Positions 33-1,476 of a stretch of 64,000 bases of DNA are shown here, in pieces; position 1 is the first letter of the stretch; every line of letters begins with the position of its first letter. The position numbers and the translations under genes are program-made. The stretch is from Heliocybe sulcata. Taxonomy: Eukaryota > Basidiomycota > Agaricomycetes > Gloeophyllales > Gloeophyllaceae. Under the pieces are notes generated by a model, which ran no database searches, was not told the origin of the DNA, and saw only the letters and a program-made list of their open reading frames with translations. Location: assembly GCA_004369045.1 (NCBI GenBank), contig ML213517.1, positions 717,008 to 781,007 on the forward strand, given 5' to 3'.

Positions 33-188
33 AGAGTGTATTCGCTAGGTTATTTACCGGAGAATTTGTGGAATACGGCTGCACGAGTTTTGGAATAAGA
101 TGACGCACCGGCTGGCTGTAACTGAATGCAAAGCCGCCACCAAGCCTTGCGACGCAACCAAACAACTTCAAAGTAACATTGCCACAGT
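33..188 (+). repeat. Left terminal inverted repeat of SWIM element
   Basis: Aligns in inverted orientation with 1332-1476. The outermost 28 bases differ at only a few positions; the middle part (about 60-125) is more diverged and has small indels, and the inner part matches well again. The match fades near GCCACA. Confidence 0.75.
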
Positions 189-275
189 TGTTCAGTAAAT
201 AAGATGTACAGTTGTATATTAGACTCAGTACAATACGGCATAGTGCATGCGATATACCCTACTGTCAGATTGCTA

Positions 276-1248
276 CTACCTCGGGTGATACCCCATTAAA
301 TTCCGTGATATCTTAGCTTCTCGACCATTGCGGGGCCAAGTGGTACCCCGTATGCGGCCCGTAATCTCGAGCCGCCGTACATCTTGCACAAGGTCGGCGA
401 CGTCCCGGCCAAGCCCAACACCGCTGTTCCGGTTTAAGATGCTATTCGTCCATATATGGTTTTTGTGAGGGATCTGTGAGCGAATAATGTCAGCGGCCTC
501 GGACAGCATGTCGGCGAGCTCTGCAAGCCGAGTTAGATCGTGCTGAATCTAGTTAAACAACTCAGAAGTTAGATGCCAGTAGAGTCAACAGAAAGTAGGC
601 GGCACTTACATCCTGCTCGTCGTCGCTGTCGAGATCCAGCTCAACGGCTGATGCCCGCCGAGCCCAGCTCTCGTCTTCGGGGTCGCGAACGACAAGAGAG
701 GGCTGTCCGCTGCTGGACCCCTCTTTCCGCTTTCCGAGCACGGCGGCGGCAACGTCAGTGATGAGAATACGCCACTCGTTGCCTACCCGTCCAGCCTTGG
801 AATCTCCCGCCCTCACCCAGACGTGGTCATCGTCGTCTGTTACATTGATCTTGGCAGTCCCGGCAGTGAGGTATTCGTCGATTGTCCCGGTAAGCTCAAC
901 GGCGGGAAGGAAGTCAGGGTGTCGATAGATCGGGGTAGTCCGTCGCCTAAAGACAGTCCTCCAGAACTTCGGATTTGGGTACGGGACCGCTTGAACTAGA
1001 TGCTTGCATAGGGCATGAGCATCGTACATCTGTCGCCCGCAGTTGCATTGCCACCGTGCGATGTCGGTCTCGTAGGGACGACTACTGACCGTGGCTGCTA
1101 GATGAGCCTTCCAACCGCGCTTGAGGTAAGTCTGGAATGAGGAGAGGGCTTTCGGGTGACCCGTACGCAGGTACGTGTTTCGCCGTCCGATCCAGTGTCG
1201 GGGAAGGTCGATGCCATACAGGGGAGGAAGGGCGTCCACAGAAGTCAC
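276..1248 (-). CDS. SWIM zinc-finger protein, two exons, start not clear
   Basis: Exons 1248-610 and 548-276 join in phase through a 61-bp intron (GTAAGT...CTAG), giving about 303 residues. Near residue 70 a CNCG...CKH pattern (C-x-C, then C-x-H about 12 residues later) is the zinc-binding core of a SWIM finger. The rest is unfamiliar: a basic N-terminal part, then an acidic DSDDEQD stretch at the splice site and a helical tail. The frame opens with GTG and no in-frame ATG precedes the finger; an upstream ATG near 1285 is in another frame. The start may lie in an unseen exon or the copy may be decaying. Its position inside inverted repeats suggests a transposon-borne gene; a function in transposition is inference. 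Confidence 0.6.
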
Positions 1249-1331
1249 AAGTGGGAGAAAAGCTCGCGAAAGAGGAAGGCAAACATCAACTTCAACACGC
1301 GCGCCAGAGCGTCGGAGTACACGTGATCGTG

Positions 1332-1476
1332 TTGTGGCGACATCACTTTGACATTATTTGGTTTGCGTCGCAAGGCTTAGTGGCGGCTTTGCATTCACTC
1401 TGGCTGTAGTTCTGGAAGAGCCTCACTCTATTCCATAACTACGAAATCCTGGTAAATAACGTAGCGAATACACTCT
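1332..1476 (-). repeat. Right terminal inverted repeat of SWIM element
   Basis: Reverse complement of this stretch matches 33-188 across its length with substitutions and short gaps. It begins about 85 bases upstream of the first sense codon of the SWIM reading frame, so the element's gene would be transcribed from inside or next to this repeat. Confidence 0.75.

Follow-up and report, generated by a model that had tools for sequence, protein, structure and literature searches.

MULE transposons typically have long terminal inverted repeats (TIRs), and their autonomous members encode a transposase with an RNase H-like DDE domain; MULE and IS256 elements are akin. Pack-MULEs carry a captured host gene fragment, and elements of the Ds kind are internally deleted transposon derivatives. 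The superfamily of a MITE is judged by the length of its target duplication together with superfamily-specific termini and partner. A MULE survey gives target site duplications of 8–11 bp and SWIM fingers in many groups, among them a sub-group with Basidiomycota (PMC6446971). For the agaricomycete Marasmius oreades, widespread putative non-autonomous MULE insertions are described (PMC8290104).

The DNA analyzed here (the window) is a stretch of 64,000 nucleotides, positions 717008–781007 of contig C15 in a 31.6-Mb assembly. Heliocybe sulcata, its source, is an agaricomycete of the Gloeophyllales. Near the left end of the window, the locus very probably consists of two nested elements: a non-autonomous MULE inserted within a MITE. 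The open-licence literature, as far as its text was accessible, yielded neither a paper on Heliocybe transposons nor an account of the inner element. The two elements are organized as follows:

30–32, no strand: left copy of the outer MITE 3-bp target site duplication (TAT on either side)
33–120, plus strand: outer MITE left part, with its TIR at 33–58; the last 9 bases are the inner element's target site
112–120, no strand: left copy of the inner MULE 9-bp target site duplication, CTGGCTGTA
121–1399, minus strand (that of its gene): inner non-autonomous MULE, 1,279 bp long, with two more copies, on C17 and C5
121–186, plus strand: inner MULE left TIR, 86% identical to its right counterpart across 65 columns
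1333–1399, plus strand: inner MULE right TIR, on the 5' side of the gene
1400–1408, no strand: right copy of the inner MULE 9-bp target site duplication, CTGGCTGTA
1400–1476, plus strand: outer MITE right part; 1400–1408 is the duplicated target and 1451–1476 the TIR
1477–1479, no strand: right copy of the outer MITE 3-bp target site duplication, TAT

The first-pass annotation described one gene enclosed in its own unit by TIRs of ~150 bp. Inverted repeats are present where it placed them, but they are two short pairs from two elements: 33–58/1451–1476 (26 nt, 96%) and 123–162/1358–1397 (40 nt, 93%), the second pair reaching 65 columns at 86% once a single gap is allowed. Both pairs outscore all 1000 mononucleotide shuffles (83 vs. 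a maximum of 25; 50 vs. a maximum of 31). The search for copies proposed at that stage, run against the same genome with positions 1–1500 as the query, gave two kinds of matches, short and long, with counts that are lower bounds. The outer ends occur in at least 19 other places, and the long matches, inside 121–1399, on C17 and C5 only. The outer MITE and the inner MULE each recur separately, and the single unit is thereby lost.

The outer MITE measures ~156 bp (33–120 plus 1409–1476), with ends of 26 bp. At 17 of the 19 places, the listing includes both its left part (to 118–120) and its right part (from 1400), with an overlap of 6 to 9 bases; C4:1719581 and C17:229155 are each represented there by a single part. 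Joined without the insert, the MITE aligns in one piece across the split point of the window at all 17 fetched loci, with 86–99% identity; C17:496148 and C17:229155 were left out of this alignment, which took in 17 of the 19 places. The joined MITE contains the 9-bp target stretch once, and the 17 loci align across that stretch as well. The empty site is thus represented by other MITE copies, not by an allele. The alternative of one non-autonomous element bounded by ~150-bp TIRs, with a 3-bp target duplication and forming a SWIM-only family of its own, would agree with the TAT found on either side of the outermost repeats. This reading was rejected because the insert is absent from 17/17 fetched MITE loci, at which the outer ends belong to a unit of ~156 bp that has no SWIM part; C17, moreover, carries the inner element with its own ends and other flanks. 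It can be regarded as practically discarded in favor of the nested arrangement.

Identical 3-mers flank 12 of the 18 MITE copies that could be read in register, the window included: this 3-mer is TAT for the window copy, with AAT, ATT, ACT, AAG or TTT for others. The six others (L033, L034, L035, L036, L038 and L039) are truncated, diverged or have differing flanks. Copies L032–L036 and L039 have a common left flank and lie within a larger repeat, so they do not represent independent insertions; leaving them out, identical 3-mers are present in 11/12 copies. The MITE may be carried by this larger repeat or may be its shorter relative. Around bases 4,913–5,871 of L032, the larger repeat extends over 964 bp with 98.8% identity between L032 and L035, and the shared left flank is ATGCTATGCCCCTACTGTCGGCGGA.

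The TAT reported at first sight as a possible duplication is indeed found on both sides, but flanks the outer MITE only; hence, it does not conflict with a MULE identity of the inner element. The discrepancy once seen between a 3-bp flank and the MULE family disappears, as the SWIM-containing element has its own exact duplications of 9 bp, within the MULE range. The C17 copy (1,098 bp, both ends present, other flanking sequence) is bordered by a different exact 9-bp duplication, CAAGCCACG, and the duplications are therefore exact in 2/2 inner-element copies with both flanks. The C5 copy, 528 bp long, is ended by the contig end. Different 9-bp duplications at two sites are a record of past movement only. 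For a local inversion, which the first-pass annotation had named as what could explain the repeats, or for an assembly artifact, no favorable point was found; further copies with different flanks on C17 and C5 contradict both, and this explanation is extremely improbable. The annotated protein P0001 at NCBI probably derives from the same assembly and, hence, does not count as independent evidence. Protein P0002, which resembles the C17 copy, is recorded on a contig with a length of 661,520 bases; C17 measures 657,057 bases here.

The terminus of the inner element reads TGAATGCAAAGCCGCCAC. Its exact 18-base form occurs at five genomic places, all inside the three inner-element copies. Inexact matches to the terminus pattern number 31, vs. 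22 for a reversed control pattern, and look like mostly chance. The window and C17 differ by 18 substitutions (16 transitions) in 1,098 aligned bases, and C17 lacks a further 35 and 146 bp in two deletions; the window and C5 differ by four substitutions in 528 bases. Pooling both comparisons, 20/22 substitutions are transitions, with site 1379 counted twice. Window positions 121–307 (187 bases) are identical to the C17 copy, all 18 differences falling in the other 911 aligned bases. This uneven distribution may reflect chance or gene conversion.

Within the inner element, an open reading frame on the minus strand (565–1353, 263 residues between stops) has a visually recognizable SWIM pattern, CxC...CxH. 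A region of ~150 bp (about 1180–1332) separates the right TIR from the start of the transposase homology. Two longer proteins, P0044 from Arthromyces matolae and P0109 from Bondarzewia mesenterica, align with the window in order through their SWIM-like finger and tail, with 39–47% identity. The coding features are:

616–1179, minus strand: stretch matching P0044 residues 439–619, 39% identity
about 1000–1047, minus strand: SWIM-like finger CxC...CxH, from the cysteine positions
276–548, minus strand: second exon, transposase C-terminal tail (P0044 654–747, P0109 699–769, P0059 534–612; 45–47% identity)

In the order of P0044, residues 439–619 lie at 1179–616 and are followed by residues 654–747 at 575–288; linked, this two-exon match has an E-value of 2.8e-47 in a small local comparison. 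P0001 likewise spans both exons across the intron. By these alignments, the reading frame and second exon correspond to the C-terminal ~310 residues, finger and tail, of fungal MULE transposases. P0044 upstream of residue 439, including its MULE domain (45–140), finds no match in the inner element and, unlike P0044 and P0109, the window element is without an N-terminus and the entire catalytic region. The earlier statement that there is no DDE domain holds: PF10551 was found neither in the reading frame by the Pfam scan nor at this locus by the genome profile search. The SWIM gene proposed alongside it stands in part. Its cysteine pattern is visible and its second exon matches a transposase tail, but no Pfam model matches the frame at E<=1, and the suggested check with the SWIM model (PF04434) was accordingly negative at that threshold. 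NCBIfam gave no match for the window protein; for P0044 and P0109, it gave IS256 matches far below the cut-off, as would agree with the kinship of MULE and IS256 elements. Three matches to solved structures (E 0.25–0.51) were regarded as chance.

At E<=0.001, the search with the reading frame retrieved 11 proteins, including two from H. sulcata; as it admitted only proteins up to 1.75x the query length, full-length transposases could not show up. A profile built from nine relatives matched 532 proteins. Five long ones among the 120 matches listed were scanned with Pfam: P0014 (663 aa), P0044 (758 aa), P0109 (782 aa), P0059 and P0048. PF10551 was above the cut-off in the N-terminal half of the first three (3/5), with E-values of 3.5e-12 for P0044 and 1.9e-10 for P0109; P0059 reached it below the cut-off only, and P0048 had no family match. 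PF04434 was detected in 4/10 relatives in one scan and 2/5 in the other, every match being under the curated cut-off.

Truncated transposases act as repressors in some other transposons. A SWIM-tail protein might, in the same way, still be made from the inner element and regulate MULE transposition, for example, as an end-binding repressor, which would make the element a natural self-limiting transposon derivative. The frame is uninterrupted in the window copy, as it is across the 160 residues present in the C5 copy, and two copies have gene models (P0001 and P0002). No in-frame ATG, however, occurs before residue 109, a position already past the CxC half of the finger and its first two cysteines. 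A narrow single-intron scan produced no model in which an ATG further upstream would be spliced into the SWIM frame; a wide scan produced 31 such models out of 446, which may be chance. The C17 copy is, furthermore, frame-broken by its 35-bp deletion. In the two copy comparisons, five nonsynonymous and three synonymous changes fall in the transposase-homologous codons 61–248 (11 and three over the whole frame); for transitions in codons 61–248, 67% nonsynonymous is the neutral expectation. The substitutions, few as they are, look neutral, and nothing in them suggests purifying selection. A working regulator is, consequently, very improbable, and the frame would rather be a relic; the gene model for this locus, OE88DRAFT_477680 of Heliocybe sulcata, is indicated to be a transposon relic and not a host gene.

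No full-length element with the inner-element ends was found in the assembly with P0109, PF10551, PF04434 and the terminus pattern, the ends being compared for C22 only. For the inner-element family, P0109 recovered the SWIM and tail parts only and, beyond the three copies, one distant relative at C22:114336–115471. PF10551 gave five genomic matches (C22, C21, two on C38 and C25) and PF04434 two (C21 and C38). C22 is the sole PF10551 place whose ends were compared with the inner TIR; pieces of C21, C38 (two) and C25 were scanned for self-inverted repeats. A more complete MULE is present on C22 (L047, L043; C22:113301–116950), with inverted ends of ~45 bp, 82% identical and ~3.4 kb apart. At about 113.3–116.8 kb, it combines a PF10551 MULE region with a CSC...CKH finger, at 31–39% identity to P0044 and P0109. 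It was examined as a parent: its ends have no convincing match to the inner TIR, in a comparison made without a shuffled control, and the C22 MULE is therefore not an evident source. An autonomous parent may have diverged ends.

The inner element very probably has the following history. From the transposase of a MULE transposon, the N-terminal and catalytic portions were lost, with the TIRs, the SWIM exon and the tail exon kept. Some MULE transposase would then have moved the deleted element in trans; it landed in a pre-existing MITE, duplicating 9 bp. What seemed odd, a transposon limited to SWIM and duplicating 3 bp, resolves into two known kinds of elements, one inside the other; the nest is real but ordinary. 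Two Heliocybe sulcata repeat families now have boundaries.

Compared with the described systems, the inner element has the exact 9-bp duplication of the MULE range of 8–11 bp, TIRs of ~65 bp (86%) and a transposase-related C-terminus, and it does not have the DDE domain of an autonomous member. Since the catalytic region is absent and the C-terminus matches MULE transposases, the sequence comparison identifies it as an internally deleted non-autonomous MULE, not as a new SWIM-only family. The first-pass annotation, which considered an unusual non-autonomous element or a separate family, was right about a mobile, MULE-related, non-autonomous element, but the loss of the catalytic part makes it one of a known MULE kind. 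Its recognized coding part is transposase; unlike in Pack-MULEs, no captured host gene was recognized. The inner element resembles the putative non-autonomous MULEs of Marasmius oreades, as well as Ds-kind derivatives, in its MULE-type TIRs, 9-bp duplications and lack of a complete transposase of its own and differs from them in retaining a recognizable transposase C-terminus.
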